A stretch of DNA of 64,000 nucleotides, from NCBI RefSeq assembly GCF_900105625.1, contig NZ_FNSD01000001.1:806001-870000 (forward strand), written 5' to 3'. The DNA is from Terriglobus roseus. GTDB taxonomy: Bacteria; Acidobacteriota; Terriglobia; Terriglobales; Acidobacteriaceae. This document shows, in pieces, positions 36,737 to 57,806 of the stretch; position 1 is the first letter of the stretch, and the number at the start of each line of letters is the position of its first letter. Under the pieces are notes generated by a model, which searched no databases, was not told the origin of the DNA, and saw nothing but the letters and a program-made list of their open reading frames with translations. A program made the position numbers and the translations under genes.

Positions 36737-36753
36737 TTGGAAGTATCCTTGCT
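36737..36753 (+). promoter_or_regulatory. sigma-54-type promoter before the FemAB-like gene
   Basis: TTGGAAGTATCCTTGCT fits the -24/-12 pattern TTGG-N8-TTGCW with the required 12-base distance between GG and GC. It lies about 60 bases upstream of the start codon. Confidence 0.65.
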
Positions 36754-36812
36754 CGGTTTACGACGGCTTCCATAAGACGACGCGGCACCGCTGCACGGGC
36801 CGGTCGATAGAC

Positions 36813-37916
36813 ATGCGAACGATGGAGAACATGAGCCGCGAAGCTTCAACGCGAGTGGACGAAACCTGGCGTGCAGTCGAAGCAGACACCCTGTTTGAGG
36901 GAACACTGCTACCGCTGTCGCATCGCGCCGCGTGGGCCCAGACCCAGCCCAAGGGTTCCGTTCTTCATGTCGATGTGCTGGGGCCAGCCGGACGACGGAT
37001 TACATCACTTGTAGTGCAGCGGGATGGCAGCCGCATTCTGCCCGGGCACGTTTTTCTTCGGGTGCAGCGTTTCGGCTATGGCTGGCCTATGCACACCTGG
37101 TCCGCCGCGATCCAGCGGCTCACGGAGATCGCAAAGGCTGACAGCAAGGTATTGCGCCTGAATATCGAGATCTTCCTTCGGGAAGACCGGGAGAAGATGC
37201 ACGAACTGTTGCGTGCGAACGGCTTCACGTCCGTGCCACCGCGAAGCTATCGGCACACGCTGACTCTGCCGGTCGATCAGCCGGATGAGGCTCTGCTCGC
37301 CACTCGGAAATCTCTGAGGAAGCGCCTGCGCGACGCCGAGAAGGCTGGTGCTGTCATCCGCGTCCTCACGGAGCCACAATTTGCCGTGGCGTTGACCGCC
37401 CTGCAGCAGAAGGCTATGGAACGCAGCGGAGGCACCTTCCGCATTCCCGACTGGCCGTCCATCCTGAAGTTCTCCGAAGCAGAACCGGGAATGTCGCGCG
37501 TGGTCGGATTGTTCCCGTCTGCCGATGCAGTCGCACCGGACACCATGCTTGGCTTCGCATGGGGCTGCATGCACGGCGACCATGCGGAGTACCGCGCAGC
37601 CGGATCAGCGGAACTGGGCCCGGAGCACCGCGGAATCTCCATCAGCCATCCCCTGCTTTGGGACCTGGTTCGCTGGACCCGCGAAAACGGTGGGACCTGG
37701 TTCGATATGGGCGGCGTCACGCTGAAGGAAGGCGGCGACGATCCTCTGGCCGGTATCTCCGCCACGAAACGGGTCTTCAGTGAAACCGTGGAAGAGGTGG
37801 GCGAAGAGTGGATGCTGGAGCCGCACCCGTGGAAGAGCCGGCTCGCAAAGGGCCTTGGCAGACTGATCGGGAAGATGGCCACCTTCACGAAGCCATCGGT
37901 GGAGAAGAGCCGATGA
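36813..37916 (+). CDS. FemAB-like acyl/aminoacyltransferase of the PEP-CTERM locus
   Basis: Cytoplasmic protein of about 367 aa with a tandem GNAT fold related to FemAB, which in exosortase loci is a known companion (FemAB-like, PEP-CTERM-associated). Recognisable parts are SLRKRLRDAEKAGAVIRVLTE, ALQQKAMERSGGTFRIPDWPSI, and the C-terminal WFDMGGVTLKEGGDDPLAGISATKRVFS, corresponding to the FemAB end motif. It probably acylates or aminoacylates an exopolysaccharide or lipid-linked sugar. Start uncertain: three in-frame ATGs (this one, +9 and +18) are possible, the last with GGAG close by. It is preceded by a sigma-54-type promoter and overlaps the next gene by four bases. Confidence 0.78.
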   Translation: MRTMENMSREASTRVDETWRAVEADTLFEGTLLPLSHRAAWAQTQPKGSVLHVDVLGPAGRRITSLVVQRDGSRILPGHVFLRVQRFGYGWPMHTWSAAIQRLTEIAKADSKVLRLNIEIFLREDREKMHELLRANGFTSVPPRSYRHTLTLPVDQPDEALLATRKSLRKRLRDAEKAGAVIRVLTEPQFAVALTALQQKAMERSGGTFRIPDWPSILKFSEAEPGMSRVVGLFPSADAVAPDTMLGFAWGCMHGDHAEYRAAGSAELGPEHRGISISHPLLWDLVRWTRENGGTWFDMGGVTLKEGGDDPLAGISATKRVFSETVEEVGEEWMLEPHPWKSRLAKGLGRLIGKMATFTKPSVEKSR

Positions 37917-38977
37917 GCGGCCAACTTGTCAGCGTCCTGGTTCCGACCTACAACCGTGCAGACTGCCTGCTGGAGACGCTCGACTGCGTCCTCGCACAGA
38001 CCCACACAGACTGGGAACTGATCATCGTCGATGATGGTTCGACCGACGGGACGGGCAATCTCGTCGCTGCGCACTTCCAGGGCGACACGAGGCTGCGCTA
38101 CATCTACCAGCAGAACGCGGGCGTCTCGCACGCGCGGAATACGGGGCTTCGAGCAGCCAAGGGCGACTTCATCGCATTTCTGGATTCTGACGATCGCTGG
38201 ATGCCGTGGAAGCTGGCAGCTCAGCTCGCCTGTATGCGAGAGAGGCCCGAGATCGGCATGGTCTGGACGGACATGGAGGCGATCGACCACACGGGCGCAT
38301 TCCTTGAGGCGCGGCACCTGAGGACGATGTACAGCGCCTATCAACACCACCAGATGGACACGCTGTTCTCAGGCAGCATGGCGGCGGAAGCCGTCCGTTC
38401 CATGCCTGCGGAGGCAACCCAGCAGGAGAGCGCGGTGCGCTTCTTCTTCGGCGACATCTTCGCGCCCATGATTCTTGGCAGCCTGGTCCACACCTCGACC
38501 GTGATGCTGCGGCGCGACCGAGCACTACTGGTCGGCGGCTTCGATGAGACGCTCAAGCACTCCGGCGAGGACTATGACTTTCATCTCCGTACATGTAAAG
38601 CCGGCCCTGTTGGCTTGCTGGACGTGTCTGCCATCCAGTATCGAAAGGGCAGGCCGGATCGTCTCACCCGCTATACCGATGCCACGGCCATCAACTTCCT
38701 CGCGACCGTGGAGAAGGCCGTAGCAAACGACACGGAAGGCCGGCTGCGAAAGCAGGACGTGGATCGTGTGCTGGTGGAAGCGAATGAATGGGTGGCGGAA
38801 GAAAAGTTCAAGCTGCGCGATAGCAAGGCCGTCCGGCGGCACGCCCTCCGGTCATTGCGGCGGAAGCCGCGGCAGCGCAGGCTGATCGCACTTTTTGTGA
38901 TGAGCTATCTTCCGATGACCCTGTTGGAACGGGTGATGCGGTTCTATCGTTCCGCGAAGGATCGGCTTCGCCGATAG
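37913..38977 (+). CDS. family 2 glycosyltransferase
   Basis: Cytoplasmic GT-A enzyme of 354 aa. The N-terminus has VSVLVPTYNRADCLLETLDC and WELIIVDDGSTDGT, and the nucleotide-sugar DxD-like motif is AFLDSDDRWMPWKL. HTSTVMLRRDRALLVGGFDE is the acceptor-side segment. The basic C-terminus (RRHALRSLRRKPRQRR) ends in a hydrophobic stretch (LIALFVMSYLPMTLLERV) that may bind the membrane. It adds a sugar to an exopolysaccharide repeat unit. The ATG overlaps the FemAB-like stop (ATGA) and GGAGAAG precedes it. Confidence 0.9.
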   Translation: MSGQLVSVLVPTYNRADCLLETLDCVLAQTHTDWELIIVDDGSTDGTGNLVAAHFQGDTRLRYIYQQNAGVSHARNTGLRAAKGDFIAFLDSDDRWMPWKLAAQLACMRERPEIGMVWTDMEAIDHTGAFLEARHLRTMYSAYQHHQMDTLFSGSMAAEAVRSMPAEATQQESAVRFFFGDIFAPMILGSLVHTSTVMLRRDRALLVGGFDETLKHSGEDYDFHLRTCKAGPVGLLDVSAIQYRKGRPDRLTRYTDATAINFLATVEKAVANDTEGRLRKQDVDRVLVEANEWVAEEKFKLRDSKAVRRHALRSLRRKPRQRRLIALFVMSYLPMTLLERVMRFYRSAKDRLRR

Positions 38978-39043
38978 GGTCATAGCCCGTCGGCGCATTC
39001 TGTCGTATTCTTCAGCAGCAGAGCGAGTTCCTGCAGCTTGACC

Positions 39044-40042
39044 ATGTCCAAACGCCTTTTCCTGTCACGTTTCCTGAAGAGATCGGGTGTGTTCGCACTC
39101 CTCGATGCCCTGCCGTTACGACCTGGGGTGCTGGTGGTAAACCATCACCGCATCGGTGACGCGAGCCAGACACGCTTTGATCGTGGCGTCTTCAGCCAGA
39201 CTGCCGAAGGACTCGACGAGCAGATCCGCTTCCTTCGGAAACGCATGCCCATCGTGGCTGGCGAGGAGTTGGAGGCGCTGCTGACCGGCAAGCAACCGCT
39301 CAAGCGCACGTACGCAGCGATCACCTTTGATGACGGCTACCTCGATAACTACCGGGATGCCTTCCCCGTGCTGCAGAGTCAAGGCGTCCCCGCCATCTTC
39401 TTTCCGGTCATCCAGTACGTTGGCAGCGATGCGGTGCCCTGGTGGGATGAGATTGCCTACCTGGTGAGGAATACCACGCGACCATCTGTCGAGGTGAGTT
39501 ATCCATCGCAGTTGCAGGTCACACTGGGAGACGACCGCGAGGTGGCCATCCGGCAGCTGCTGCGCCACTACAAGAAGCCGGAAAACCGGAACGGCGAGAA
39601 GTTCCTCGAGGGGCTGCGAGCGAGTGCCGGTTGCAACCCACCGGCACCCGGACGGAGGTTTCTGGACTGGGATGAGGCCCGCACGATGGCGAATGCCGGC
39701 ATGGAGTTCGGCTCCCACACCTGTTCCCATACCATCCTGAGCCAGCAATCGCCCGAGGATCAGCGTTGGGAGCTTACAGAATCACGTCGCGTCCTCCAAA
39801 AGGAGCTTGGCAGGCCCATCCACTCCCTTGCGTATCCCGTCGGATCGGCAAGCGCCTTCACACCAGAGACCGAAGAGATAGCTGCCAATGCTGGGTTTTC
39901 GTTGGGTTTTGCCTTCCAGGGAGGCTGGAATCAGCCCGGTGTGGGCCGTGCAACGCATGTGCAGCGGATCTCCCCCGCACCGGAACCGGAACTGTTTCAG
40001 GCTCAGACGTTACAACTCATGAACCCGCTCGCGCGGTGGTAA
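39044..40042 (+). CDS. polysaccharide deacetylase (NodB/CE4)
   Basis: Protein of 332 aa with the NodB homology domain. The first metal/catalytic motif is ITFDDGYLDNYRDAFPVL (residues about 93-110) and the second GSHTCSHTILSQQSPEDQRWE gives the SHxxSH histidines. SLAYPVGSASAFTPETEE corresponds to the motif containing the catalytic base partner. It removes N-acetyl groups from a polysaccharide, and deacetylases of this type are regular members of PEP-CTERM exopolysaccharide loci. No clear signal peptide is seen; the N-terminus is basic and amphipathic, so location is uncertain. Confidence 0.87.
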   Translation: MSKRLFLSRFLKRSGVFALLDALPLRPGVLVVNHHRIGDASQTRFDRGVFSQTAEGLDEQIRFLRKRMPIVAGEELEALLTGKQPLKRTYAAITFDDGYLDNYRDAFPVLQSQGVPAIFFPVIQYVGSDAVPWWDEIAYLVRNTTRPSVEVSYPSQLQVTLGDDREVAIRQLLRHYKKPENRNGEKFLEGLRASAGCNPPAPGRRFLDWDEARTMANAGMEFGSHTCSHTILSQQSPEDQRWELTESRRVLQKELGRPIHSLAYPVGSASAFTPETEEIAANAGFSLGFAFQGGWNQPGVGRATHVQRISPAPEPELFQAQTLQLMNPLARW

Positions 40043-40074
40043 CTACCACCAAAGTGTGGCACAAATTTACCACT
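40035..40074 (+). promoter_or_regulatory. palindrome and half-site overlapping the deacetylase stop codon
   Basis: Perfect inverted repeat GGTGGTA-AC-TACCACC, whose left half includes the deacetylase stop codon, followed 15 bases later by TTTACCACT. They lie directly upstream of the -35 box of the next gene and share the TACCAC core with elements near 36.7 kb and 48.2 kb. A protein-binding role is inferred. Confidence 0.5.
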
Positions 40075-40080
40075 ATGTTC

Positions 40081-40109
40081 TAGACAAGTACCAATGATGA
40101 CCCTAGGAT
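40081..40109 (+). promoter_or_regulatory. candidate sigma-70 promoter of the small secreted protein gene
   Basis: TAGACA and TAGGAT are separated by 17 bases, about 40 bases before the ATG. The adjacent TGGCACAAATTTACCA resembles a sigma-54 site but lacks the essential GC at -12. Confidence 0.45.
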
Positions 40110-40149
40110 CAAGTTATTCCTTGCACGCGAAGGAATACTGAGGTCCTTT

Positions 40150-40551: not shown

Positions 40552-40571
40552 TTCGGGACGAAGCAAGATTC

Positions 40572-40604
40572 AAGGGCCACCCTGTCACAGGGTGGCCCTT
40601 TCCC
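40572..40604 (+). terminator. bidirectional intrinsic terminator
   Basis: Perfect 13-bp stem AAGGGCCACCCTG/CAGGGTGGCCCTT with a three-base loop, between the convergent small secreted protein and the following minus-strand gene. Confidence 0.88.
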
Positions 40605-40614
40605 TTGCGCGCAT

Positions 40615-41649: not shown

Positions 41650-41920
41650 AGGAATCACCTGCGAGAATGGAACGGCCGGGAGAAAGCCGAACTGATTGGG
41701 GATGCAAGAAGATAGCAAGCCGTGATGTGCACGGGTTTGCGGGTTTTCCAGTCCCCCGAAGGTAGATTTTGAGCTTGCTTTCGTCATCCCAATCTGCTGC
41801 TGCGTCACACGCCGGAAGATCCTTCCTACCCCAGGCGGTTGATTCCCGCAGAGCGCGAAATGTCGTACCATCCGACGACGTGACACCGATCCCTGCAACT
41901 CGTTTCATCTGGAGATTTTG

Positions 41921-43426: not shown

Positions 43427-43465
43427 AGATGCAGGCACCGCAGAGATACCCGTAGATGAGGCTGC

Positions 43466-44761
43466 ATGATCGCTAGGCTGAAGATCGAGGCGGAGGACTT
43501 CCTCCGCTACAACCCCACAGTCCGCAATACCCTTGCCCGATACAAGATTCAGCGGGCGGCGAGATCCGAGGCGCCGAACACCAGGGCGGCAATCGCCTCC
43601 CTGCGCGACCTGTGCGCCGCGGCACGACTCGCCAGCGACGGTTCGCTGGTCCTGCAAGCGGAAAGCGCCATCGAGCGCGTTTTGAATCGAATCAATCCTG
43701 CCGAAATTGTCTGGGAGGAACTGCTGCCGGACCCTGCTTCGCGGCGAATCTCAAAAGGCATGATTCTGAAGCCATACGTCAGCGAACGTGAAAAGGGTGT
43801 GGTCTTCGTCTCGTTCGAAAACCAGATGGCCCGACTCGCGAAGGCGACGGATCTTGCGCGCTTTGCCAGCCGGTACACGCTGGTCGTCTCGCCCTCGTGG
43901 TGCCCGCCACACTCGGTGTACACCTACCTGTTCCCGCGGGTTTACCCGGACAAGATCATCACGCTCATCAGCAATACGAAGGATCTGACCTACTTCCCGC
44001 GCATGGACTCGAAGTACAGCATGCTGCCGCTGTATGCCTCCAACTGGGTTGATGACCGCGAATTCCGGCCTGTCCCCAAGACTGAGAAGAACATCGACAT
44101 CTTCATGCTTGCGAACTTCGCGAAGTATAAGCGCCACTACGCATTTTTCCGTGCGTTGCAGGATGTTCCGCGAAGCTTCCGAATCGTGCTGAACGGCCAG
44201 AGCGAACCAGGCCGTTCGCGCGAGACGATCCTGGATGAGGCCGGTGCCTATGGTGTGCGCGATCGCTTCGAGCTGCGCGAAAACGTTACGGACCAGGAAC
44301 TGCATGACAACCTGGTGCATGCGAAGACCAGCGTCATCCTGTCGCTGCGCGAGGGCTCGTGCGTCGCGGTCGTTGAAGCCATGTTCGCGAACACGCCGGT
44401 TGGCATGTTGGAGCATGCAGAAATTGGTTCGCGCGTCTTCATTACGCCGGAAACCGGGCGACTGCTGAAGCCTGCCGCGCTTGGCGCACAGTTAACAGAC
44501 TTCGTGAATACCTCGCACGCCTACGAGCCGAGACGGTGGGTAGAAGAGAACGGTGTCGGCTGCCTGGCAAGCTCTGCTACGCTCAACGACACTCTGAAGC
44601 GCGAGGCGCTGTCCGCAGGCCGCGACTGGACGGAGGACATCGCACCCCTGCGATGGCGTCCCAATCCCCAGTTCTACCGGCCTGAAGATGCAGCTCGCAT
44701 GCAGGAGGCACATGCCGACATCGAGGCATGCGGCCTGTTGATAGGGCCCGCCGCGCAATGA
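43466..44761 (+). CDS. GT4-type glycosyltransferase
   Basis: Cytoplasmic GT-B enzyme of 431 aa. Its C-terminal half has the donor-binding region of the family: LNGQSEPGRSRETILDEAGA, FELRENVTDQELHDNLVHAK and VILSLREGSCVAVVEAMFANTPVGML, where the Glu of the E-x7-E motif lies. The N-terminal half is divergent (ISKGMILKPYVSEREKGVVFVSFE). It probably adds a sugar to the exopolysaccharide repeat. GAGG precedes the ATG by five bases. It starts 39 bases after the GT39 gene, consistent with an operon. Confidence 0.8.
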   Translation: MIARLKIEAEDFLRYNPTVRNTLARYKIQRAARSEAPNTRAAIASLRDLCAAARLASDGSLVLQAESAIERVLNRINPAEIVWEELLPDPASRRISKGMILKPYVSEREKGVVFVSFENQMARLAKATDLARFASRYTLVVSPSWCPPHSVYTYLFPRVYPDKIITLISNTKDLTYFPRMDSKYSMLPLYASNWVDDREFRPVPKTEKNIDIFMLANFAKYKRHYAFFRALQDVPRSFRIVLNGQSEPGRSRETILDEAGAYGVRDRFELRENVTDQELHDNLVHAKTSVILSLREGSCVAVVEAMFANTPVGMLEHAEIGSRVFITPETGRLLKPAALGAQLTDFVNTSHAYEPRRWVEENGVGCLASSATLNDTLKREALSAGRDWTEDIAPLRWRPNPQFYRPEDAARMQEAHADIEACGLLIGPAAQ

Positions 44762-44817
44762 CAGTATTCGCAGCTGCAACGGGTCAATTTGTGAAGTCGA
44801 AAGGGCGGGCCTGAGCC

Positions 44818-46245
44818 GTGGCCTTTTTCTTCACGCTGCTCTACATGCTCACGGCTTTCGTCAGCCCGCCCGTGCTCTTTGGCGATCTGCACGTGTATCA
44901 CGTCGAGATCATCATCTCGCTTCTTGCGATTGTTACTTCGCTGCCTGCCGTGGGGCCGTCACGATTGCTGCAGCGGCCGCAGACCTGGGCGATCTTTACG
45001 CTGTGGATCGTGATCACCATCTCGCTGATGCTGAACACCTCCATGCGCGAAGGCGCTGCAGAGTTCTATGCGTTCCTGCCGGTGGTCTTCGGCTACTTCC
45101 TGACAGCGCTGAACTGCAAGACCAAGCGTCACTTCCAACTGATCATCCTTGCGCTCTTTCTAGGCGCGCTGTACTTCATCGTCCACGGCTACCTGGACCT
45201 GACTGCAAACGTGTCGCCCAGCCTATACCTTTATGGCGAGGGAACTCTCCGGCGTTTGCGCGGACTTGGCCTGGTCAACGACCCCAACGACTTCTCGCAA
45301 GTCGTGGTCAGCCTGATCCCATGCGTGTTTCTGTTCCGGCAACGCAGCACCTTCCTGAACATTTTCACCATCGGACTTCCCGTCGCTTGCCTGCTCACCG
45401 GACTGTTCCTGGCGCACTCTCGTGGCGCGGGCGTGGGCCTGATGGCGATTGTGATCCTGTCGGCGCGCCGGCGAATTGGAACGATTCCCGCCATCATCGT
45501 GGCAGGCACACTCTTTGCGGGTTCGCTGGCGTTCGGCTGGTCGGGCGGTCGAGATGTCTCGGTAGAGGCGGGCGCGGATCGCCTTGACGCCTGGGTGATG
45601 GGCATTGAATTCATCAAGACGCATCCCCTGCTGGGCATTGGGCATGATCGCTTCGGCGAACTGAATTACATCACCGCTCACAACTCCATCATGCAGTGCG
45701 CCGCCGAGGATGGATTCCTTGGCTTCTCGTGCTGGGTGATGTTCCTCTTCGTCAGCATACGGACGACAGTTCGCCTGGGCACAGCAACGCCCGCGACGGA
45801 AGAGTCTGGGCAGCCGATGGCCGCGGCACCAGCTTCACCAAAAGACGCATGGGCGATGATGCTGGCACGGTCAAAACAGACCGAGGCGATTCCCGGCATG
45901 GCCGTACCGTCCGGCCCGGCAGTCATTGTCCCCGGATGGGGAACTGCTGAGCTGGCAGACGGTTCTGCGGGGGGCGCGCCAGAAATCCAGGGGATCGCAA
46001 AGTTGCTCCTGCTGGCCCTGACGGGATTTCTGACGGCGGGATGGTTCCTCTCCCGAGCGCTCTCCCCGTGGATGTTCATGTATGGCGGCATGATCCTTGC
46101 GCTGCAGAACATGGCGGAGAGAAGGAACATCTTCCTGACGAAGGATCCTTTGCCCTTCATTCTGCGATGCTCCATCCTCATCGCACTGGGATTGCTGGCG
46201 CTGGTCTACCTCACTCTGAAGGTCCGATCAAAGATGGGCCAGTAG
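44818..46245 (+). CDS. O-antigen ligase/polymerase-like membrane protein (Wzy_C family)
   Basis: Protein of 475 aa with about 10-11 hydrophobic segments. The long periplasmic loop holds the Wzy_C-type signature GIGHDRFGELNYITAHNSIMQCAAEDG near residues 280-305, with HNS as the expected polymerase/ligase motif. It probably polymerises exopolysaccharide units or ligates glycan to an acceptor. In PEP-CTERM loci such a protein has been proposed as an O-glycosylation ligase. The start is GTG; the Shine-Dalgarno is poor and an ATG nine codons later is possible. It ends one base before the stop of the convergent paralogue B gene. Confidence 0.84.
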   Translation: MAFFFTLLYMLTAFVSPPVLFGDLHVYHVEIIISLLAIVTSLPAVGPSRLLQRPQTWAIFTLWIVITISLMLNTSMREGAAEFYAFLPVVFGYFLTALNCKTKRHFQLIILALFLGALYFIVHGYLDLTANVSPSLYLYGEGTLRRLRGLGLVNDPNDFSQVVVSLIPCVFLFRQRSTFLNIFTIGLPVACLLTGLFLAHSRGAGVGLMAIVILSARRRIGTIPAIIVAGTLFAGSLAFGWSGGRDVSVEAGADRLDAWVMGIEFIKTHPLLGIGHDRFGELNYITAHNSIMQCAAEDGFLGFSCWVMFLFVSIRTTVRLGTATPATEESGQPMAAAPASPKDAWAMMLARSKQTEAIPGMAVPSGPAVIVPGWGTAELADGSAGGAPEIQGIAKLLLLALTGFLTAGWFLSRALSPWMFMYGGMILALQNMAERRNIFLTKDPLPFILRCSILIALGLLALVYLTLKVRSKMGQ

Positions 46246-46246
46246 C

Positions 46247-47299
46247 TTATGGACGCGGGATCGAGAGTGGATCGGCGCGCGCCGAATCGCCCAGCATCTG
46301 CAGACTGGTCTCATCCACCGCCTCGAAGTCTGCGGCCTTGATGTTCGAAAGCTTATGCAGGTCATCGTCATTCCAGCGCTTGTCCGGCACTCCGCTCAGG
46401 TACATATCTCCACCGTTGTCGGCCAGGAGCATGCCGTACTTCTTCAGCGCGGTGATGATTACCTTGTCGGCAGCCGGGTAACCCGAGGCATCAAAGTCCG
46501 CCCGTAGCCGGAAGCGCTCGCCCATGGGCGGGAAGTTCGAGTCACGATGAGGCGAGGCAAAGTGGCGGGCAGGCCAAATGTATGCCGCCTGGGTCCGTGT
46601 TGTGGTGAATCGCAGTGCATGCCGGATCTCTCCGGAGGCCACCTCTTCGTAGCGGACAAGGCCCGGCAGGATGGGCAGGCCTGCGGCGTCTGCGGATGTC
46701 TTGTCCGGCGGACGCAATGCGTTGCTCTCGAGATCCATGCGGATTCCGGATGCGGCCTTCCAGCGACCGTCCGATACCTTTTTCGCGGCGAACAACTCGT
46801 AAAGCATGCAGCGCTGCGCCTCGATCACGATGACGTGGCGATCGCCGTCATCCTTAGGATGAGCGCCACCCTCGATCGGCGCGTCCGGAGGAATCGGGTA
46901 ATTTCCCAGGTCACTATCGTCACGGTATTCGAATTCAATCGGTATCCGGCGTGTACTTGGCGGGGTTACCGTAAATGGAATGCCATAGGCCGGGTCTGTG
47001 CCAAAGTCGGGATGCAGGCGATTGATGGGGCGCATCACCTCGAGGTAGGCGGCCGAGCGGGGATCCTTGGGCAGGCCGTCCACCGGCGTGTTCCACACAT
47101 TGGAAGCCGGGAAGACCGGGCAGTTCGCGATTGTGGGACCGCCCGATTCTTTGGCAGATTGCTTCTGCGCCAGAACGACCGTTCCATGGTCTCCTGCTTC
47201 AAAAGGTGGAAGTTTTCGCTGCAGCAGCGAGTAGATCGCCGCGATGGCCGCAAGGCCGAGGACGGCGGCGCCGGTTGGACTTAGTTTCAAATTCGACAA
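46247..47299 (-). CDS. secreted protein of an uncharacterised family, paralogue B
   Basis: Protein of 350 aa with a membrane anchor or signal segment (SPTGAAVLGLAAIAAIYSLLQ) and the same conserved blocks as the gene at 40.6-41.6 kb: SNVWNTPVDGLP, HPDFGTDPAYGIPF, DDSDLGNYPI, EGGAHPKDDGDRHVIVIE, CMLYELF, SADAAGLPILPGLVRYEEV, WPARHFAS and LSGVPDKRWNDDDLHKL. The family appears in Actinobacteria and fungi as well, from memory, without a known function. The start is TTG preceded by aaggtg. The two copies bracket the GT39, GT4 and polymerase genes, so they may act on the same polymer. Confidence 0.83.
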   Translation of the reverse strand: MSNLKLSPTGAAVLGLAAIAAIYSLLQRKLPPFEAGDHGTVVLAQKQSAKESGGPTIANCPVFPASNVWNTPVDGLPKDPRSAAYLEVMRPINRLHPDFGTDPAYGIPFTVTPPSTRRIPIEFEYRDDSDLGNYPIPPDAPIEGGAHPKDDGDRHVIVIEAQRCMLYELFAAKKVSDGRWKAASGIRMDLESNALRPPDKTSADAAGLPILPGLVRYEEVASGEIRHALRFTTTRTQAAYIWPARHFASPHRDSNFPPMGERFRLRADFDASGYPAADKVIITALKKYGMLLADNGGDMYLSGVPDKRWNDDDLHKLSNIKAADFEAVDETSLQMLGDSARADPLSIPRP

Positions 47300-47403
47300 T
47301 GCTGCACCTTTTCATGCGGATCATTCGTTACGCCTGAGCCATTATTGGATGCATTCCGTCCGCCACCGCCGCGCCGAGAGGCGAGCCCAGCGACACCCTT
47401 CGA

Positions 47404-47420
47404 TTGGCCATCCGATTGCA
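47404..47420 (+). promoter_or_regulatory. sigma-54-type promoter of the PEP-CTERM protein gene
   Basis: TTGGCCATCCGATTGCA matches the -24 (TTGGC) and -12 (TTGCA) elements with the exact 12-base GG-to-GC distance. It is 35 bases upstream of the ATG. Confidence 0.72.
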
Positions 47421-47454
47421 ATCGTATGCTCGTAGTCCTGAACAAGAGGCCTAA

Positions 47455-48213
47455 ATGCGTAACCCCGCCCTGATTACCGCAGTGCTCTTCATAGCCGTGG
47501 GCGGCTGTGCGGAAAGCATTGCCAACTCCCCGGAATGCGAGCGCTGGATCGCTGACTACAGCCACAAGCTCGCGGAATCGCAGCCCGTTCAGGAAATTTC
47601 CCAGAACAAGCACCTGAAGAAGTACGTTCATCGGACGATCGGCACCCCTACGGCCAAGCCGAAACTGGTGCGAACGGCTTCCCCGCAGGATCCGCTCCGT
47701 CCGCGCATGACACCGCAGCAGATGATGAAGAAGTTCCAGGTTCTCTGCGGCGATCTGCCTCCCGTGGAGACGGCGATGACCATTCCGCCAGTCGCGCCGC
47801 CTGCCGGACCGGCGCTGGTTCCGGGCATACCGACCAGTGGTTCGCCTGCAATCACGCCCGCTTTCTCTTCAACGCCGGGCAGCCCGATCATTCCTGGCGG
47901 CCCAGGTGGCTCCAGTCCGGGCACCAGCTTTACGCCCCCAGGATCGCCCACGCCGCCGGGATCTCCAGCGCCTCCGGGTATCCCGACGCCTCCCGGAACC
48001 CCGACGCCTCCCGGAACCCCGACGCCTCCCGGGACTCCCACACCTCCCGGGACTCCGACGCCGCCGACCGGGCCTCCGGATCTGCCGCCAACGACTCCGC
48101 CGGAGGGACCACCTGCTCCACCCGTGCCCGAGCCTTCCACGCTTGTGCTGATGCTTTCAGGAGCGGTGCTTGCAGCTGGCTACACCTTTCGCAGGAAAAC
48201 GGCGTTGATTTAG
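47455..48213 (+). CDS. PEP-CTERM sorted protein with proline-rich repeats
   Basis: Exported protein of 252 aa. The N-terminus (MRNPALITAVLFIAVGGC) is a signal peptide with a lipobox-like VGGC. Residues about 105-222 are a Pro/Gly/Thr-rich linker including tandem GTPTPP-type hexads. The C-terminus (residues 224-252) is a textbook PEP-CTERM sorting signal: VPEPSTLVLMLSGAVLAAGY followed by FRRK. It is therefore a substrate of the exosortase encoded about 6 kb away and a candidate structural or linker protein of the exopolysaccharide matrix. No catalytic domain is seen. A sigma-54-type promoter precedes it. Confidence 0.88.
   Translation: MRNPALITAVLFIAVGGCAESIANSPECERWIADYSHKLAESQPVQEISQNKHLKKYVHRTIGTPTAKPKLVRTASPQDPLRPRMTPQQMMKKFQVLCGDLPPVETAMTIPPVAPPAGPALVPGIPTSGSPAITPAFSSTPGSPIIPGGPGGSSPGTSFTPPGSPTPPGSPAPPGIPTPPGTPTPPGTPTPPGTPTPPGTPTPPTGPPDLPPTTPPEGPPAPPVPEPSTLVLMLSGAVLAAGYTFRRKTALI
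47946..48053 (+). repeat. tandem 18-bp repeats encoding a Pro-rich linker
   Basis: About six units of the form CCCGACGCCTCCCGGAAC, with the first two more diverged. Each encodes a hexad such as GTPTPP. Near-identical units suggest recent expansion and possible length variation between strains. Confidence 0.85.
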
Positions 48214-48223
48214 CGCTCTTCCA

Positions 48224-48273
48224 TAGGTGGTAATGTTTTGCCCTTATTGGGTTTGACATTGCCACCTATTTTA
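48224..48273 (+). terminator. long hairpin after the PEP-CTERM gene, possible terminator or enhancer
   Basis: TAGGTGGTAATG pairs with CATTGCCACCTA (11 of 12) around a 21-base centre with an inner CCC/GGG pairing, followed by TTTTA. It fits a terminator for the PEP-CTERM gene, but its AGGTGGTAA arm resembles elements upstream of other locus genes and lies about 145-190 bases before the next sigma-54-type promoter, a usual activator-site distance. Confidence 0.5.
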
Positions 48274-48411
48274 GGTTGCCAACCAATATCCCTATAGACC
48301 CCGACAAAAATTCCCGATTCGCGTCATTTCTTCCTTGCAGACAATTCGGAAAGAACAACATCTGCAGAGGTTTGCAGAAATTGCAGGTTCCGCACAAGGG
48401 TTCTAGGACCT

Positions 48412-48428
48412 TTGGCTACGCAAGTGCA
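48412..48428 (+). promoter_or_regulatory. sigma-54-type promoter of the 80-aa protein gene
   Basis: TTGGCTACGCAAGTGCA keeps the -24 TTGGC and the -12 GC with the 12-base distance; the -12 box is GTGCA rather than TTGCA. It is 45 bases before the ATG. Confidence 0.55.
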
Positions 48429-48473
48429 ATGACCCATATCGAGTGCTAAGGCCGCGCTCGATGGAGAACGATA

Positions 48474-48716
48474 ATGTTGAACAAATTGATGATTGCCGTA
48501 GCACTTGCAACATGTTCTGCCGCACCCGCTGTAGCTCAGCCGCATGGCCGGCCTGCAGTGACCACTCCTGCTTTTGCAATGCGTTCCGCTGATCGACTGA
48601 CAAGCGTAACCGGATCTGTTATCTCCGGTAACCCCGAATTCGGCATGCTTCTTTGCCTTGGCGCACTCTTTGTAGGATCTGCTGCACTGTTCTCGACCCG
48701 CCGCTCGGAGATGTAG
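48474..48716 (+). CDS. tiny exported protein with variant PEP-CTERM-like tail
   Basis: Protein of 80 aa. A signal peptide (MLNKLMIAVALATCSAAPAVA) is followed by about 30 residues and then a tail (residues 53-80) built like an exosortase signal: NPEFG, a hydrophobic helix (MLLCLGALFVGSAALF) and STRRSEM. The usual PEP is replaced by NPE, so recognition by the exosortase is uncertain. After both cleavages the mature peptide would be only about 30 residues. A sigma-54-type promoter precedes it. Function unknown. Confidence 0.72.
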   Translation: MLNKLMIAVALATCSAAPAVAQPHGRPAVTTPAFAMRSADRLTSVTGSVISGNPEFGMLLCLGALFVGSAALFSTRRSEM

Positions 48717-48744
48717 TTTTACCCCGCGGCTGCAGCCCGCACTG

Positions 48745-50289
48745 TTACGGGAGCTCTTCCGCAATCGTGACCCGGCGCAGCAGCCACGAGTAGGTCATTT
48801 GGACCGGAGCGGCAAGGACGGCAGGACTCGCATCCACCAGAACCTTCAGCCGCTCAAGATCTTCCCCTTCCAACCAACGGAAAAGCCAGGCGCAACCTAA
48901 CAGAAGCGCACCGGCAACCCCTGCACCGGCGATCAGGCCTGGCAGGGGCGAGAGTGTCCGTGCAACCGCATAGGCACAGCCAGCGGCAAACGTGCTTCCA
49001 AGGACGACCTTCCCCAGGAACAGCCACGGCATGCGAATGCGATATTGCCTGATCGCGAGGGTCCACAGGGCCGTGACGGCGATCAACTGCGCCAATCCGC
49101 TGCCAATCGTCGCACCGACTGCGCCATGCTGCGGGATGAGCCACCATGCCACTGCCACGTCGACCACCGAAGCGAAGAGCGTTGCCCAGATGAAGTACTT
49201 CTGCCGTTCCACCGCCTCAAACAGTGTTTGTACAGGCGTCAGGAAAGCCTTCGGCAGGCAGGTGAGCGGAGCCATCGTCGCGACCAGGATCGCGCCCCGG
49301 TACTGGTCGCCGTACATGGCTACCAGCAACGATCCGGCAAGGGCGGTGGTGACGATGTGTAGCGGCAGGGACGTCAGACCAAGATAGCGTGCGGAAGAGG
49401 CCGTCATGGCCGGGATGCGGCTGCGGTCGCGACCATACTGCGCGAAGACTGTCGCACCCGTCGCCGAGGCGAAGACCGTTGGGAAGATCAGCAGCTTCTC
49501 CGCGAGACTGAAGGCTACAGAGTAAAAGGCGATCTGCCGGACATCAGGAGACATGTGCTTCAGAAGGAAGATCTCTGACCGATCCCAGACAATCAGTGTG
49601 AGCATCATGCCCGTAATGCTCTGCCATGCGAAGTGGAACATCCGGGGACGCAGATCCGGCGGTAGCGCGACGTTGTCTGCGGGCCAGTTGCGGACCTTCC
49701 AGATCGTCGGGACGAATCGGACCGCAAAGTCCACGATGCGCATGCCCAGCATGGCGGATGCGATGCCAACCACGCCCCAGTGCAGATACACCGCAAGGAC
49801 CGTAAGGACGAAGAAGGTAGCGGTGCTGGCGGCGGATGCCGGCAGGTTGGACGAAAGCTCCTCAGAGGCCACATTAGCCTGCGCCGAGATTGAGTTCACC
49901 ATCGATGGCCAGACGCCGATCACCAGCAGCAGCGCGGCCAGCCGGAACTCCATTGGCGCATTCCGCAGCACCCAGACGATGGAGACAGCGGTCATGAGCG
50001 TCGCCATGCCGATCTGAATGGAGAGGGTGCGGAAGTAGATGAAACGCGCCGTCGACCACTGGCCCGATCCCAGGTATTCCGCCATGTACTTCCGCGTCGT
50101 GGCCGGGATGCCGATGCTGCCAAAGCTGCTTGCAATGTTCGCCAGCCACATCACATAGATGATGTAGCCCATGCGGGATGGGCCAAGCGCGCGTGCGACA
50201 AGAACGGAAGTGACCAGCGACGCCAGGAAACTGATGAGGTTTTCCAGGCCATACCAGAGCGTGTTCCGGAGGATGGTTTTACTATTCAA
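48745..50289 (-). CDS. Wzx-like flippase (MATE/MOP superfamily)
   Basis: Protein of 514 aa with about 14 hydrophobic helices, typical of oligosaccharide flippases. The N-terminus (NTLWYGLENLISFLASLVTSVLVARALGPSRMGYI) is the classic start of this family, and AISAQANVASEEL-like NSISAQANVASEELSSN lies in a loop. It flips undecaprenyl-linked repeat units to the periplasm for the Wzy-like polymerase. The start is TTG. It begins 42 bases after the TPR gene, so it ends the exosortase operon. Confidence 0.88.
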   Translation of the reverse strand: MNSKTILRNTLWYGLENLISFLASLVTSVLVARALGPSRMGYIIYVMWLANIASSFGSIGIPATTRKYMAEYLGSGQWSTARFIYFRTLSIQIGMATLMTAVSIVWVLRNAPMEFRLAALLLVIGVWPSMVNSISAQANVASEELSSNLPASAASTATFFVLTVLAVYLHWGVVGIASAMLGMRIVDFAVRFVPTIWKVRNWPADNVALPPDLRPRMFHFAWQSITGMMLTLIVWDRSEIFLLKHMSPDVRQIAFYSVAFSLAEKLLIFPTVFASATGATVFAQYGRDRSRIPAMTASSARYLGLTSLPLHIVTTALAGSLLVAMYGDQYRGAILVATMAPLTCLPKAFLTPVQTLFEAVERQKYFIWATLFASVVDVAVAWWLIPQHGAVGATIGSGLAQLIAVTALWTLAIRQYRIRMPWLFLGKVVLGSTFAAGCAYAVARTLSPLPGLIAGAGVAGALLLGCAWLFRWLEGEDLERLKVLVDASPAVLAAPVQMTYSWLLRRVTIAEELP

Positions 50290-50331
50290 CGCGCCTGCAT
50301 CACCTGCGGGAAAAAGCCCATGTCCTTCATG

Positions 50332-52626
50332 TTAGCTGCCATTGCCCGAAAGCTTCGCCAAAGCCTGCTGTGCCTGCGTTGCGAGGGCCGTTCCCGGCGC
50401 CATCGCAGAGGCGCGGTTCAGATGGATGGCAGCTTCAGGCTTCCGGCCAAGCGAACCCAGAACGACTCCCAAGTGGTACTGAACGGAGGCATCCGAATCG
50501 TCCAGAACGGCTGCCTTCTGCAGGGGCTCAATCCCTGAAGCGGGCAGGCCCTTGCGGTAGTAGATCCATCCCAGCGCGTCCGCCGCAGCAACCGAAGCGG
50601 GATGCGCCCGATAGGCAGCTTGCGCCGTCGAGAGAGCCACATCGAGGTTTCCGCCGCCGTCCGCCGAAAGCGCCGCGATGCTGGCGGAGACTTCCGGCTG
50701 GTCTGACTTGATGTTCAAGGAGCGCCGGTAATACTCAAGCGCCGTTTTATTATCGCCCGCGGATTCGAACAACATGCCAAGGGCAGCGGGTGCCTGCGGG
50801 TCAGCAGGGTGCGCCGCAGCCCAGCGATTCCACAGATCTACCGCCGGATCGAGCTGTCCCATGCTGAGACCGATCTTCGTAAAGGTCTGCGCGGCACTGC
50901 GGTTGTTTGCGTCCAGGGTGGTCGCTCGCGTCGCGCTGGCAAGCGCCCCGGCTGCGTCGCCCGCGGCCTGTTGCGCCTGCGCAAGCTGGTCGTAGAGCTC
51001 CGACGACGCCGGCGCACGCTCCAACTGGCGTTGCGCGCGCTGGACGGCGATGGCTGGCTGATGTGCGCGAATGTCCAGATCGTTCAGGCCGGCGATCGCG
51101 GCGGGGTCCGGCGAGAGTTGGAGCGCCTGTTCGAACGCTTCCCTTGCCTTCTGCACGTTGCCCTGCGCGGCCTGCGCCATGCCCAGTTGGACCAACGCAA
51201 AACCATAGGCAGGCCTGCGCCGAAGCGCTTCCTGGATGTCCGCAATTGCGGCCGCGTTTCCGTTGGCCTGCAGGTTCGCAACACCTCTCCAAAGGTAGCC
51301 ATCGGCCAGGGCCGGGTGGAAGAGCAGGATCTGCCGTGCGGCTTCCTTCAGATCGGTAGCGTCGCCGCGGCGATAGGCCAGGTCGGCGAGTCCGGACTGC
51401 GCTTCAAGATTCGAGCGATCGCCCCGCAATACCTTCCGGAAGGTCTCAGCTGCCTTCTGCGGATCACCCGATGCGTCCTGCGCTCTCGCCAGCAAATTCA
51501 ACAGCTGCGCATTGTCAGGGTAGTTCTTCGTTGCGGTCTGCAGCAGTTGCAGCGCTTCGTCGTTTTTTCCGTCATGCATCAACAGATAAGCCTGCAGCAG
51601 GTTCACACCGGGGTCCGTTTCATGGTGCTGCGACAGGTCCTCGATCATCGGCCGCGCTGTGGCGAAGTTTCCTCGAGCAATCAACACGCGCAGGTAGGCG
51701 AGCCTCAGGTCGAGACTGCCGGGATGGCGCTGCACCAGGGCCTCATAGGCCTTCTGCGCCTGGTCCAACGACCCCGTTTCCCCGTAGAAACGCTCCAGCA
51801 GTGGAGCCGCCGCGGGATCGTCGGACAGATCATCGGTTGCCTCCCGGAGCGTCTCCTCTGCCTTCGCGCGGTCACCGGCATGGGTGTAGAGCGCTGCCAG
51901 TCCCGCGCGGGCGGGAATGCTCTGCGGCGCGAGGAGGATTGCTTCCTGCATCTGCTCCTGAGCCCCTTTTAGATCGCCACGCCGCTCTAGGATGCTGGCC
52001 AGCCCGTAACGCGCGCTGACATCTTTGCCGTTGAGCCGGATCGCCGTCTTCAGCTCGGTCACCGCCTCCGGCTGGGTCGCGGCATCGGCCGCGAGCAGTT
52101 GCCCAAGGGCCGTATGGAACTCTGCGCGGCCTGGCACCAAGAGGATGGCGGAGCGGATGGCCTGAATCGCGACGCCCCTGTTCCCGCCTGCTGCGGACGC
52201 AGCGGAGAGGAGTGCCTGGGCATCCGCGTTCGATGGCTGCTTGAAGACGACCCACCGCGCCTGCGCCGCCGCCGGTTCTACCTGTCCTGTCTGCAGAAGG
52301 AGCCTCCCGACATCGACGCGGGCAGCCATATTCTCTGGCGCCAACTGCAACACCTGTCCCAGCTCATAGATCGCAAGCTGGACCGATCCGCTCTGCTGGT
52401 AGGCGCGGGCCAGTTCGTAGTGGCCGTCCACCATGGATGAATCGAGACGCAAGGCGTTCGAGAACTGAATGGCGGCCTCGTGCGGTTTTCCCTCACGCTC
52501 GTACTGCCGGCCGCTCTCCATGTAGGCCCTTCCGCGGCTCTTCGCACTGCGGCAACCTCCCAGCAAAGTGAGCGTGAGCAGCAGCGTAGCAGCGGAATTC
52601 CGGCGGTTTATACGTGCGAGCTGCAG
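50332..52626 (-). CDS. TPR-repeat lipoprotein of the PEP-CTERM locus, probable CTG start
   Basis: Protein of about 764 aa made mostly of tetratricopeptide repeats (roughly 18; for example AAIQFSNALRLDSSMVDGHYELARAYQQSG and ALGWIYYRKGLPASGIEPLQKA), matching the large TPR lipoproteins (PrsT-like) found in exosortase loci. In-frame ATG, GTG or TTG codons give no signal peptide: the first is a TTG inside the hydrophobic core. Reading from CTG, with GAGG seven bases upstream, yields MQLARINRRNSAATLLLTLT followed by LLGGC, a perfect lipoprotein signal. It likely anchors in a membrane and scaffolds exopolysaccharide assembly. An ATG five bases upstream is out of frame and stops after seven codons. 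Confidence 0.83.
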   Translation of the reverse strand: MQLARINRRNSAATLLLTLTLLGGCRSAKSRGRAYMESGRQYEREGKPHEAAIQFSNALRLDSSMVDGHYELARAYQQSGSVQLAIYELGQVLQLAPENMAARVDVGRLLLQTGQVEPAAAQARWVVFKQPSNADAQALLSAASAAGGNRGVAIQAIRSAILLVPGRAEFHTALGQLLAADAATQPEAVTELKTAIRLNGKDVSARYGLASILERRGDLKGAQEQMQEAILLAPQSIPARAGLAALYTHAGDRAKAEETLREATDDLSDDPAAAPLLERFYGETGSLDQAQKAYEALVQRHPGSLDLRLAYLRVLIARGNFATARPMIEDLSQHHETDPGVNLLQAYLLMHDGKNDEALQLLQTATKNYPDNAQLLNLLARAQDASGDPQKAAETFRKVLRGDRSNLEAQSGLADLAYRRGDATDLKEAARQILLFHPALADGYLWRGVANLQANGNAAAIADIQEALRRRPAYGFALVQLGMAQAAQGNVQKAREAFEQALQLSPDPAAIAGLNDLDIRAHQPAIAVQRAQRQLERAPASSELYDQLAQAQQAAGDAAGALASATRATTLDANNRSAAQTFTKIGLSMGQLDPAVDLWNRWAAAHPADPQAPAALGMLFESAGDNKTALEYYRRSLNIKSDQPEVSASIAALSADGGGNLDVALSTAQAAYRAHPASVAAADALGWIYYRKGLPASGIEPLQKAAVLDDSDASVQYHLGVVLGSLGRKPEAAIHLNRASAMAPGTALATQAQQALAKLSGNGS

Positions 52627-52674
52627 GTCATGACCTCAGGTAAAGGGGATGCGAATCCGGCTCCGAAGAGTTTC

Positions 52675-53322
52675 TCAGCCGGGGAGATAAGGCGAAAGCA
52701 GCGGGTCCATGTGAGCCGTGAAATTTACCGCGCGTTCCCGGGCCGCTGTTTGCGACTCGCCCGGTGCGATCGGTGTCATGATCCGTAACAGCGCTCCGTC
52801 CGTCCTCCGGTCCCGGATCGACTGAAGAAGCAGGTGGCCCTTCGCAGCATAATCGTTTGCGATATCGTTTCCCCGGCTCCGATACCAATAGAGCACCTCA
52901 AATTTTGCGGAACCGTTGGTGACAACGTACTCGGCGACGTGATGCGGCTGGCCGGCCGCGTCGGTTAAATCGACGCGGCCTCCTGACTCGAACGTCCAGC
53001 CCGCGCCCGGCAGGCAGTTTTGCGGGGAATGAATGGTCTGCCCGGTGCGTTGGCTCGGGAAATATGCGATGAGCAGGTCGATCGGCGTTGCGCTGCCTGT
53101 GCCTTCCAAACGGCTGTAGCTACGGTCCAGAAACTTGCCATCGCCCAGCACCTCCAGAACGCGCGGCTCCATCGGTACGTCCTCGCCTTGCCACTGGCCG
53201 ATCGTTAGCGGAAGGTCCTGCAGAGGCAAGCTGGGCACAATGAGGTCCCGGTCGCCGCGAATACGCAGGGTCAGATCGGCAGCCGCAAGAAGCAGAACCA
53301 GCACGATTGCCTTGCGATTCAT
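52675..53322 (-). CDS. EpsI-family exosortase-associated protein
   Basis: Protein of 215 aa with an N-terminal signal or anchor (IVLVLLLAAADLTL) and the EpsI domain. The signature TIHSPQNCLPGAGWTF, carrying the conserved His, Cys and Gly-Trp, is intact, with DLTDAAGQ and VLYWYRSRG following. EpsI proteins accompany exosortases, either as a fused C-terminal domain or as a separate gene as here, and are thought to take part in processing or in exopolysaccharide export. The gene overlaps the exosortase stop by four bases, so they are co-translated. Confidence 0.9.
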   Translation of the reverse strand: MNRKAIVLVLLLAAADLTLRIRGDRDLIVPSLPLQDLPLTIGQWQGEDVPMEPRVLEVLGDGKFLDRSYSRLEGTGSATPIDLLIAYFPSQRTGQTIHSPQNCLPGAGWTFESGGRVDLTDAAGQPHHVAEYVVTNGSAKFEVLYWYRSRGNDIANDYAAKGHLLLQSIRDRRTDGALLRIMTPIAPGESQTAARERAVNFTAHMDPLLSPYLPG

Positions 53323-54209
53323 GCGGTGCGTCTCGCATGGGCGTTCATGGCCGCGTGCAGGATCAGCAACAGCACCAGGGAGAAGAGGAACATCAGCAGA
53401 CCGGAGAACTCATGGAAGAAGCCCAGGGCGACCTCGGCTCCGCGTTGCTGGACCAACAAACCGGTCCCCACTATCCGCAGCATATTCGCGCACACGGCCA
53501 CGGGGACGCTGCATGCGATCAGAATCCATCGCCGGGCGTTGCTGCGTTCTGCGAAGTAACCGTAGAGCACCGCCAACGTGAAAAGGCTCATCAGCGAGCG
53601 TATCCCGCTGCAGGCCTCTGCGACCTCCAGCGAGATGGACGGCAGACGGATGATGTTGCCCTCTCGAAAGACCGGTACATGGAAGAGTGGCAGAACAGCA
53701 CTCGCCGCCCATGACGACAGCAGCTGCAGTGGCAGGGCGACCTGGTTGAAGATCACCTGAGGTATGGGGATGGCAAGCAGACAGACTGCCAGGGGAAGGC
53801 GCAGCGCCATAAGCATCCGCCCGCCCGCCAGCAGCCAGATCATGCCGCTGGCAACAAGCAGAAAGGAGAGCCGTGCCAGGAACAACTCTGACCCGAGGAC
53901 CCCCAGCAGCAGGAGCGCAAGGCCGGGCAGCAGCAGCCAGAGGCCAAGCCAGGTGGGGGAAACTGCGATCTCCTGGAGCTTCTTCGACCGCGCCCAGACC
54001 AGGTAACCGACAAAGATCGGAATGAGAAAGCCATGGGAAAAATCCGGAAGTACATACCAGTCGTGTACTAACTTCAGAAGAACGCTGAAATACAGGCTGA
54101 AGACGAGAAAGAGCGTCATCGCGGCCAAGGCGAGATCGTAGGCGGCCATCCCGTCCAAAGCGGCGGCAAGAGACCGCTCATGCGAAAAATATTTACCACT
54201 TTTGAGCAT
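53319..54209 (-). CDS. exosortase
   Basis: Membrane protease/transpeptidase of about 296 aa with eight or so hydrophobic helices. The catalytic triad motifs are visible: VAEACSGIRSLMSL (nucleophile Cys), VCANMLRIVGTG (Arg) and GFFHEFSGLLMF (His). It cleaves PEP-CTERM proteins at the sorting signal and presumably attaches them to a cell-surface glycan. Substrates in the window include the proline-rich protein at 47.5 kb and possibly the 80-aa protein. The chosen ATG gives an N-terminal cytoplasmic extension; an ATG 60 bases further in is possible. It heads an operon with EpsI, the TPR lipoprotein and the flippase. Confidence 0.92.
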   Translation of the reverse strand: MLKSGKYFSHERSLAAALDGMAAYDLALAAMTLFLVFSLYFSVLLKLVHDWYVLPDFSHGFLIPIFVGYLVWARSKKLQEIAVSPTWLGLWLLLPGLALLLLGVLGSELFLARLSFLLVASGMIWLLAGGRMLMALRLPLAVCLLAIPIPQVIFNQVALPLQLLSSWAASAVLPLFHVPVFREGNIIRLPSISLEVAEACSGIRSLMSLFTLAVLYGYFAERSNARRWILIACSVPVAVCANMLRIVGTGLLVQQRGAEVALGFFHEFSGLLMFLFSLVLLLILHAAMNAHARRTA

Positions 54210-54300
54210 CTTCTTATTTAATTGACGCAACAGATAACGTGTAGCGCCAGCACGACTGCAGATTTCCACACATCGCAGATGGGAGGTCTTTATCGCTCCT

Positions 54301-54317
54301 TTGGCACTCGCATTGCT
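54301..54317 (+). promoter_or_regulatory. sigma-54-type promoter of the exopolysaccharide export operon
   Basis: TTGGCACTCGCATTGCT fits the consensus TTGGCAC-N5-TTGCW at every fixed position. It lies 38 bases before the start codon of the export gene, in the divergent space facing the exosortase. Confidence 0.85.
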
Positions 54318-54355
54318 CGCATCAGCCTTGCGATACAAGGAACGCCTAGGATCTC

Positions 54356-57803: not shown

Positions 57804-57806
57804 CGC

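Follow-up and report, generated by a model that had tools for sequence, protein, structure and literature searches.

We examined a 64-kb stretch of a Terriglobus roseus genome (G000, 4.81 Mb in two contigs), positions 806001-870000 of its contig C1, for promoters of the sigma-54 (RpoN) type around an exosortase and exopolysaccharide (EPS) locus. This whole stretch is called the window, and plain coordinates count from its first base; those marked C1 are contig coordinates, and those marked L015 belong to the stretch past the window end. Three -24/-12 elements, at 47404, 48412 and 54301, are very likely sigma-54 promoters as judged by their conservation and placement, and a fourth match at 36737, before a FemAB-like gene, probably arose by chance. 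In the circuit that we propose, RpoN polymerase would transcribe the EPS export operon (from 54301), a PEP-CTERM gene (47404), a gene for an 80-aa protein with an NPEF motif (48412) and, past the window end, the gene of EBP365. The most likely activator would be EBP485, encoded beside EBP365, which is predicted to bind a GGNAA-N4-TTNCC palindrome some 120-190 bp upstream and to contact sigma-54 through its intact GAFTGA loop. EBP365, with a very similar Fis-type helix-turn-helix (HTH) and neither GAFTGA nor the Walker B Glu, would probably compete with EBP485 for its DNA sites and so dampen the circuit. Polysaccharide export and exosortase-sorted proteins would in this way be switched on and off together. 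We consider this circuit as a whole quite probable.

Conservation and placement of the promoter elements

All four TTGG-N9-TGC elements listed in the initial annotation of the window are present with a GG-to-GC distance of 12, and they end 35 (47404), 46 (48412) and 39 (54301) bases before a start codon, or, for 36737 and with 36813 taken as the start of the FemAB-like gene, about 60. The element at 54301 had been called near-perfect, and a hand-made sigma-54 matrix does rank it highest in the window (15.8 of a possible 16.5). The other three score 12.5 (36737), 12.4 (47404) and 11.6 (48412), all within the noise of the matrix, so that a scan of the window by itself singles out 54301 alone. 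The chance expectation given at that time, about once per 65 kb per strand, did not hold up. The loose TTGG-N9-TGC pattern occurs seven times on the plus strand and six times on the minus strand, and its TTGC form five times and once, respectively; with 13 copies in the window, the earlier estimate was too generous. Genome-wide, TTGGC-N8-TGCW was found at 96 places versus 79 for the same pattern read backwards, and a one-mismatch consensus gave 469 matches versus 471 for the reversed control, so match counting cannot settle the promoter question. One of the TTGC-form matches, a TTGG-N8-TTGC at 48247, lies inside a terminator-like hairpin (48225-48267) after the PEP-CTERM gene; the hairpin is also found in Terriglobus roseus DSM 18391, and the match is probably no promoter.

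Conservation was evaluated against that strain (Acidobacteriaceae), the closest named relative found, whose export protein is 83% identical and whose locus is collinear with window positions 44360-64000 at a DNA identity of 75.6%. The identity of each element was compared with that of all other (overlapping) 17-mers of the same intergenic gap. The element before the export operon, TTGGCACTCGCATTGCT (54301..54317, plus strand), has 16 of 17 letters in common with its counterpart, or 94% identity against a gap mean of 47%, and none of the 175 other 17-mers is equally conserved. For TTGGCCATCCGATTGCA before the PEP-CTERM gene (47404..47420, plus strand) the identity is 82% against 40%, again with no equal among 87 other 17-mers. 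The element before the NPEF gene, TTGGCTACGCAAGTGCA (48412..48428, plus strand), reaches 88% against 56%, a level attained by 5.2% of 153 other 17-mers. In all three counterparts GG and GC are present and their spacing is unchanged. The match TTGGAAGTATCCTTGC before the FemAB-like gene (36737..36752, plus strand) has no counterpart in T. roseus DSM 18391, where the DNA upstream of that gene is different; a CTGG-N9-TGC elsewhere upstream of it was counted as weak. The combination of GG/GC spacing, near-consensus flanks and conservation by which we recognise a sigma-54 promoter is therefore seen at 54301, 48412 and 47404, and not at 36737.

Placement was evaluated with the pattern TTGGC-N8-TGCW in 29 sequence sources, namely the window, its flanks, T. 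roseus DSM 18391 and further relatives, with the window and T. roseus both counted. There were 39 matches, 21 of them near a gene start and not within another open reading frame (ORF), while five control patterns (reversed, two permuted, two with wrong spacings) gave 8-16 matches in the same sources, with 0-2 so placed. The 21 sites precede export genes (7), the activator-like gene EBP3 where it stands before export (3), EBP365 orthologs (5), PEP-CTERM genes (3) and others (3). Elements equivalent to 54301 were observed before the export genes of L087, L088, L091, L095, L127 and L128. The site at 48412 is not among the 21 because the NPEF gene is not in the ORF set. In relatives, TTGG-N9-TGCW also stands upstream of 6 of 13 PEP-CTERM genes, with one of the six sites (L214) overlapping an annotated gene start, whereas none of seven control patterns, spacers of 8 and 10 among them, was found upstream of any of the 13. 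These 13 genes are what was left of 16 ORFs once three apparently spurious ones were removed, and the regular expression that collected them is insensitive, as it picked up the PEP-CTERM protein of neither the window nor T. roseus DSM 18391.

We consider it very improbable that a permissive pattern simply matched by accident at all four places in 64 kb of DNA. The 13 window copies, the small or absent genome-wide surplus relative to reversed patterns and the missing conservation of 36737 all fit such an accident, but three sites are conserved, placement in relatives beats the controls, and the elements recur before PEP-CTERM genes elsewhere. Conservation in T. roseus DSM 18391 and placement in relatives are what raise these three sites above chance. 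The common RpoN-type regulon put forward in the initial annotation is thus supported for 54301, 48412 and 47404, and not for 36737.

RpoN and the activator pair past the window end

The regulon had been made to depend on an rpoN gene, which we found some 25 kb ahead of the window start, at C1:780153-781667. It is also present in 116 of 120 genomes of the family, including 88 of 88 good ones; being nearly universal, it has no discriminating value. Strong sigma-54 activator (enhancer-binding protein, EBP) domains number 13 in the genome, five of them with an exact GAFTGA. No prsK or prsR had been visible in the window, and in the whole genome no protein scores above the cut-off of either model. 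For PrsR (TIGR02915, cut-off 502.6 bits) the best protein, an EBP at C1:494992 that carries GAFTGA, reaches 408.3 bits and EBP485 307 bits; for PrsK (TIGR02916, cut-off 300 bits) the best reaches 106.8 bits, over positions 463-679 only. Membership in the PrsK-PrsR system was rejected because these scores fall below the curated cut-offs.

A search for an activator gene elsewhere in the genome had been suggested, and two of the 13 EBPs, EBP365 and EBP485, lie as a divergent pair 4-7 kb past the window end. EBP485 (C1:875477-876934, plus strand) matches PF00158 with 227.8 bits and the Fis-type HTH family PF02954 with 35.7 bits, and has a Walker A motif GESGTGKE, a Walker B motif FLDEIGE and GAFTGA, which places it among the EBPs. 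Its receiver domain reads FAWE at the phospho-Asp position, i.e. the phospho-Asp is absent. EBP365 (C1:874093-875190, minus strand) has no GAFTGA loop and a Walker B motif LLDGIHE in which the Glu is lost, both in the window genome and in T. roseus DSM 18391, and thus lacks these two marks of a sigma-54 EBP. Among the EBP365 rows of relatives other than L190, L140 and L141, most keep GAFTGA. A GGDEF diguanylate cyclase gene, a possible source of c-di-GMP, was observed 3.4 kb beyond EBP485 at L015:10339-11562 (window end plus 10-12 kb).

EBP365 is itself likely a sigma-54 target. The -24/-12 element TTGGCTGTTGGTGTGCA (C1:875156-875172, minus strand) lies 26 bp ahead of the Met of MTLLNPAK, which is the start of the protein (the frame of T. 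roseus DSM 18391 opens just before it), and -24 TGGC and -12 TGC are kept in that strain. Across 27 loci with the pair, TTGG-N9-TGCW precedes the EBP365 ortholog in 22. These loci come from 31 rows, after removal of L094 (a paralog), L146 and the 1644 row of L183 (both EBP365 matches) and L134 (same genome as L185). Ahead of EBP485 no TTGG form was observed, and a single CTGG form in one genome; with a kinase gene in the locus, no promoter would be expected directly ahead of EBP485.

The pair is tied to exosortase/EPS loci without being exclusive to them. With limits of 380 bits or more for an EBP485 match and of about 140 or more for a strong exosortase, 41 of the 47 family genomes that have such an exosortase have EBP485 too, as do 23 of the 73 others; the sorting was by hand, and some EBP485 matches are partial. 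In 17 of 42 genomes both genes are on one contig, one of them (G076) with a partial EBP485 match below the 380-bit limit, and in 16 of the 17 they are within 26 kb. Two genomes of the same genus without an exosortase (G031, G095) have no EBP485 above 380 bits and no EBP365 at the limit used. It might be that the promoters are real and answer to another of the 13 EBPs, for example that at C1:494992, while the neighbouring pair controls something else. The higher PrsR-model score of C1:494992 together with its GAFTGA, and the EBP485 genes in genomes without a strong exosortase, agree with such an arrangement. EBP485, however, lies near the locus in the window genome and in T. roseus DSM 18391 as well as in nearly all same-contig genomes, its HTH is like that of EBP3, which stands within the locus in relatives, and no EBP of the genome exceeds the PrsR cut-off. 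We therefore consider another activator unlikely and keep EBP485 as the probable one.

Between EBP365 and EBP485, 14 of the 27 pair loci carry a gene for a soluble histidine kinase; none was found there in the other 13, which include both Terriglobus genomes. The receiver Asp is kept in all 14 EBP485 proteins with the kinase and lost in 10 of the 13 without it. Kinase state follows one split on the tree, so the association amounts to one or two events, and a tie between kinase and receiver as many independent cases was rejected on that ground. We read this as loss of phosphorylation control of EBP485 in the Terriglobus clade, with the direction taken from an unrooted tree. The EBP485 receiver of L180 (G064) has a Glu at the phospho-Asp position (LEWE), which could mimic phosphorylation.

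EBP3, an EBP-like gene, separates the exosortase from export in 24 of 35 gaps, and none of 26 rows examined has a GAFTGA-like motif. A similar HTH with ISY-x-x-LLYK is common to EBP3, EBP365, EBP485 and a further EBP near C1:4102468-4103412, which lacks GAFTGA and adjoins a second export gene. We infer that these proteins may bind the same DNA and that the mute forms would repress.

A broader reading is more tentative, and we would not bet on it as a whole. The family may have its own sigma-54 circuit for exosortase-linked polysaccharide, with up to three paralogous activators that have one DNA-reading head, one enhancer and a changed input. Active EBP485 would compete for the palindromic enhancer with the mute, GAFTGA-less EBP3 in many genera and EBP365 in Terriglobus. 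In the Terriglobus clade the circuit would have come to be without a histidine kinase and then have lost the phospho-Asp of the receiver; with both gone, the input would have shifted from phosphorylation, perhaps to a ligand such as c-di-GMP.

The candidate enhancer and its limits

The palindrome GGNAA-N3..5-TTNCC is likely the enhancer of the proposed circuit. Of 35 gaps that separate the exosortase from export or from EBP3, 23 contain it, 21 of them with a 4-base spacer, while each of five palindromes made from permuted half-sites turns up in 1-2 of the 35. The 35 gaps represent the 47 loci minus nine without an export match, one with both genes on the same strand and two with gaps over 1500 bp. 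TTGG-N9-TGCW is present in 17 of these gaps, and 10 of the 13 gaps with both have the palindrome 118-188 bp ahead of the -24. EBP365 has such a palindrome in front of it in 12 of 27 loci, 131-166 bp ahead of its -24. In these 27 loci the four G-initial half-sites, which overlap one element, occur in 10-13 and the other 16 permutations in 0-4. Since the palindrome of the exosortase-export gaps sits between two divergent genes, it could also be an operator of the exosortase gene, unrelated to sigma-54. The copies at a similar distance before EBP365, where no exosortase gene stands opposite, speak against this, and we find an operator function improbable compared with an enhancer function.

Within the window, the candidate enhancer of the export operon is GCGAAAAATATTTACC (54182..54197), about 117 bp upstream of the -24 element at 54301, and its version in T. 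roseus DSM 18391 is GGTAAATATTTGCC. For the NPEF gene, GGTAATGTTTTGCC (48229..48242), 183 bp upstream of the 48412 -24, fits the palindrome. Overlapping TGCA-N6-TGCA and TGCA-N5-TGCA repeats (48363..48385) start 49 and 39 bp upstream of the same -24, and TGCA-N6-TGCA also occurs in the EBP365/EBP485 gap of both Terriglobus genomes. This repeat, seen at 6 of 23 promoters, was displaced as the main enhancer by the GGNAA palindrome, which is far commoner in the family; because it recurs in Terriglobus it is kept as a second candidate regulator site. The palindrome or the TGCA repeat was found upstream of 3 of 5 locus sites with the exact TTGGC-N8-TGCW versus 0 of 19 other intergenic-looking ones.

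Several observations weigh against the circuit as proposed. The palindrome at 54182..54197 is imperfect, fitting a looser GNAAA-TTTNC form and not the strict one; GGTAATGTTTTGCC sits in the terminator-like hairpin 48225-48267 that T. roseus DSM 18391 also has, so it fits a terminator reading as well as an enhancer reading; and 47404 has no enhancer palindrome within 220 bp upstream. Among the exosortase-export gaps, 18 of 35 have no TTGG-N9-TGCW and 12 no strict palindrome, and three of the 13 that contain the two have the palindrome 37, 267 or 342 bp from the -24 (in L130 a second copy lies at 98). In relatives, the stretches upstream of export gave a weak signal in a matrix scan, with a mean best score of 11.5 (n=26) versus 10.9 for random sequence and scores over 14 in 3 of 26 stretches versus 1.7% of random ones. 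The EBP365 element is conserved no better than 16% of its gap. EBP485 is missing from 6 of the 47 genomes with a strong exosortase, and the 23 genomes that have it without one comprise 6 with a weak exosortase match and 17 without any. The two genes are 241 kb apart in G064 and on different contigs in 25 of 42 genomes, where their distance is uninformative. Finally, a clustering that favours the circuit has limits of its own: 5 of 24 intergenic-looking exact TTGGC-N8-TGCW sites fall in 28.8 kb at the exosortase/EPS locus (94 of the 96 genome-wide sites evaluated, two on contig C2 left out), but the pattern was fixed after three of the five were known and the intergenic cut was tightened mid-analysis from 0.10 (41 sites) to 0 (24 sites). 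Over all 94 sites the clustering is not significant (P 0.18), and a combined gene-start rule passed 13 sites with only 2 of the 5.

The fifth clustered exact site, TTGGCCAGCAAGCTGCA (L015:12144-12160), lies 15 bp before a 183-aa ORF, and the comparison stretch of T. roseus DSM 18391 ended before its counterpart. Together with the element before EBP365, this candidate makes two further elements outside the window. A second polysaccharide region at C1:4062317-4106000 (L294, L025, L026) has genes for a glycosyltransferase, a DUF3473-type deacetylase and an export protein and two EBP genes. Exact TTGGC-N8-TGCW sites were observed there at 4063517, 38 bp before the glycosyltransferase ORF, and at 4066255 and 4074769, and this region may also be under sigma-54.

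The genes of the locus itself belong to an exosortase/EpsI system, with TIGR02602 and TIGR02914 above their cut-offs and a PEP-CTERM substrate present. The XrtA/XrtW-like exosortase (53319..54338, minus strand) scores 194 bits with TIGR02602 (cut-off 105.55) and 197 with the XrtA model, below its 208; its true start is probably near 54116, as judged by the alignment of relatives. The EpsI-type partner is a separate gene (52675..53322, minus strand; TIGR02914 125.6 bits, cut-off 42.8), and a TPR protein resembling PrsT (50332..52566, minus strand) scores 241 bits with TIGR02917, below the cut-off of 312. The predicted exosortase substrate is the 252-aa PEP-CTERM protein (47455..48213, plus strand), with PF07589 at 29.4 bits and TIGR02595 at 22.7 bits, both above cut-off; a proline-rich repeat, PPGTPTPPGTPTPP, was observed in it at 47930-48110. 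The NPEF protein of 80 aa (48474..48716, plus strand) has a signal-peptide-like start, NPEF, a hydrophobic stretch and a basic end, a PEP-CTERM-like tail by eye, and no family match in the profile search. The XrtA-type export operon runs from 54356 to about 61003. Its first gene encodes the polysaccharide export protein (54356..54982, plus strand; PF02563 90 bits, above cut-off; TIGR03027 142, below 180), and profile matches at 56292..61003 (plus strand) indicate a chain-length protein, a PEP-CTERM-type ATPase, a tyrosine kinase and an EpsB-type sugar transferase, with TIGR01007 and TIGR03013 above cut-off and TIGR03007, TIGR03015 and TIGR03018 below theirs.

Comparison with known systems

FleQ/VpsR-type activators are EBPs with an AAA+ domain and a receiver that cannot be phosphorylated, and they are tied to EPS. 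EBP485 has the same architecture; its link to c-di-GMP is the nearby GGDEF gene only. If the circuit is as proposed, EBP485 would be a case of a two-component-type activator without kinase and phosphorylation site, and joint strict control of sorted surface proteins and polysaccharide export would have been kept, or reached more than once. The analysis names a candidate regulator, candidate sites and a regulon that experiments can address. In the open literature of PMC, outside of which most subscription journals and preprints lie, we found no description of such a circuit in Acidobacteria.

Related systems have been described in other phyla. The pepA gene of Aquincola tertiaricarbonis is, according to the sections used here, an RpoN-dependent PEP-CTERM gene with a mapped start and -24/-12 sequences TGGCAC and CTGCTT (PMC9850573). 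The likeness is a PEP-CTERM gene behind a -24/-12 element; Aquincola, however, is a proteobacterium with PrsK/PrsR genes in which RpoN dependence was measured, while ours is predicted from sequence alone. DVUA0057, a response regulator of an EPS operon in Desulfovibrio vulgaris, had its predicted PEP-CTERM targets enriched in a DNA-affinity chip, as excerpted from that study (PMC3333781); there the phylum is another and binding was measured, whereas here it is predicted. A survey of sigma-54 links this factor to the cell exterior and EPS, and its main text contains none of the terms Acidobacter, exosort and PEP-CTERM (PMC3162934).

The closest comparison is the PrsK-PrsR system. A sigma-54 motif (motif 2) and a 17-nt motif 1 precede PEP-CTERM genes there, along with PrsK, PrsR and PrsT, and the portion of the paper drawn on here reports the motifs in Proteobacteria and in no other of the phyla considered, and makes no mention of Acidobacteria (Haft et al. 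2006, PMC1569441). Both systems have PEP-CTERM genes and an EPS locus with -24/-12 promoters, an upstream element and an NtrC-like activator, as well as a PrsT-like TPR protein near the exosortase, as far as that portion goes (PMC1569441). The equivalent of motif 2 is present here at 47404 and before the PEP-CTERM genes of relatives counted above. Motif 1, in contrast, ends in TTTACA and differs from the Terriglobus palindrome (PMC1569441); none of the four sites has a TTTACA in the 220 bp before it, a comparison made with this ending and not with the full 17-nt motif. The mean upstream distance in the PrsK-PrsR system is 62.8 (PMC1569441), shorter than that of most palindromes here, and the host here differs in being acidobacterial, in having no PrsR or PrsK above cut-off and in having the export operon itself as a predicted target. 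We therefore file the acidobacterial circuit as one that would work like PrsK/PrsR control with another activator and another enhancer, and not as a member of that system by the tests made.

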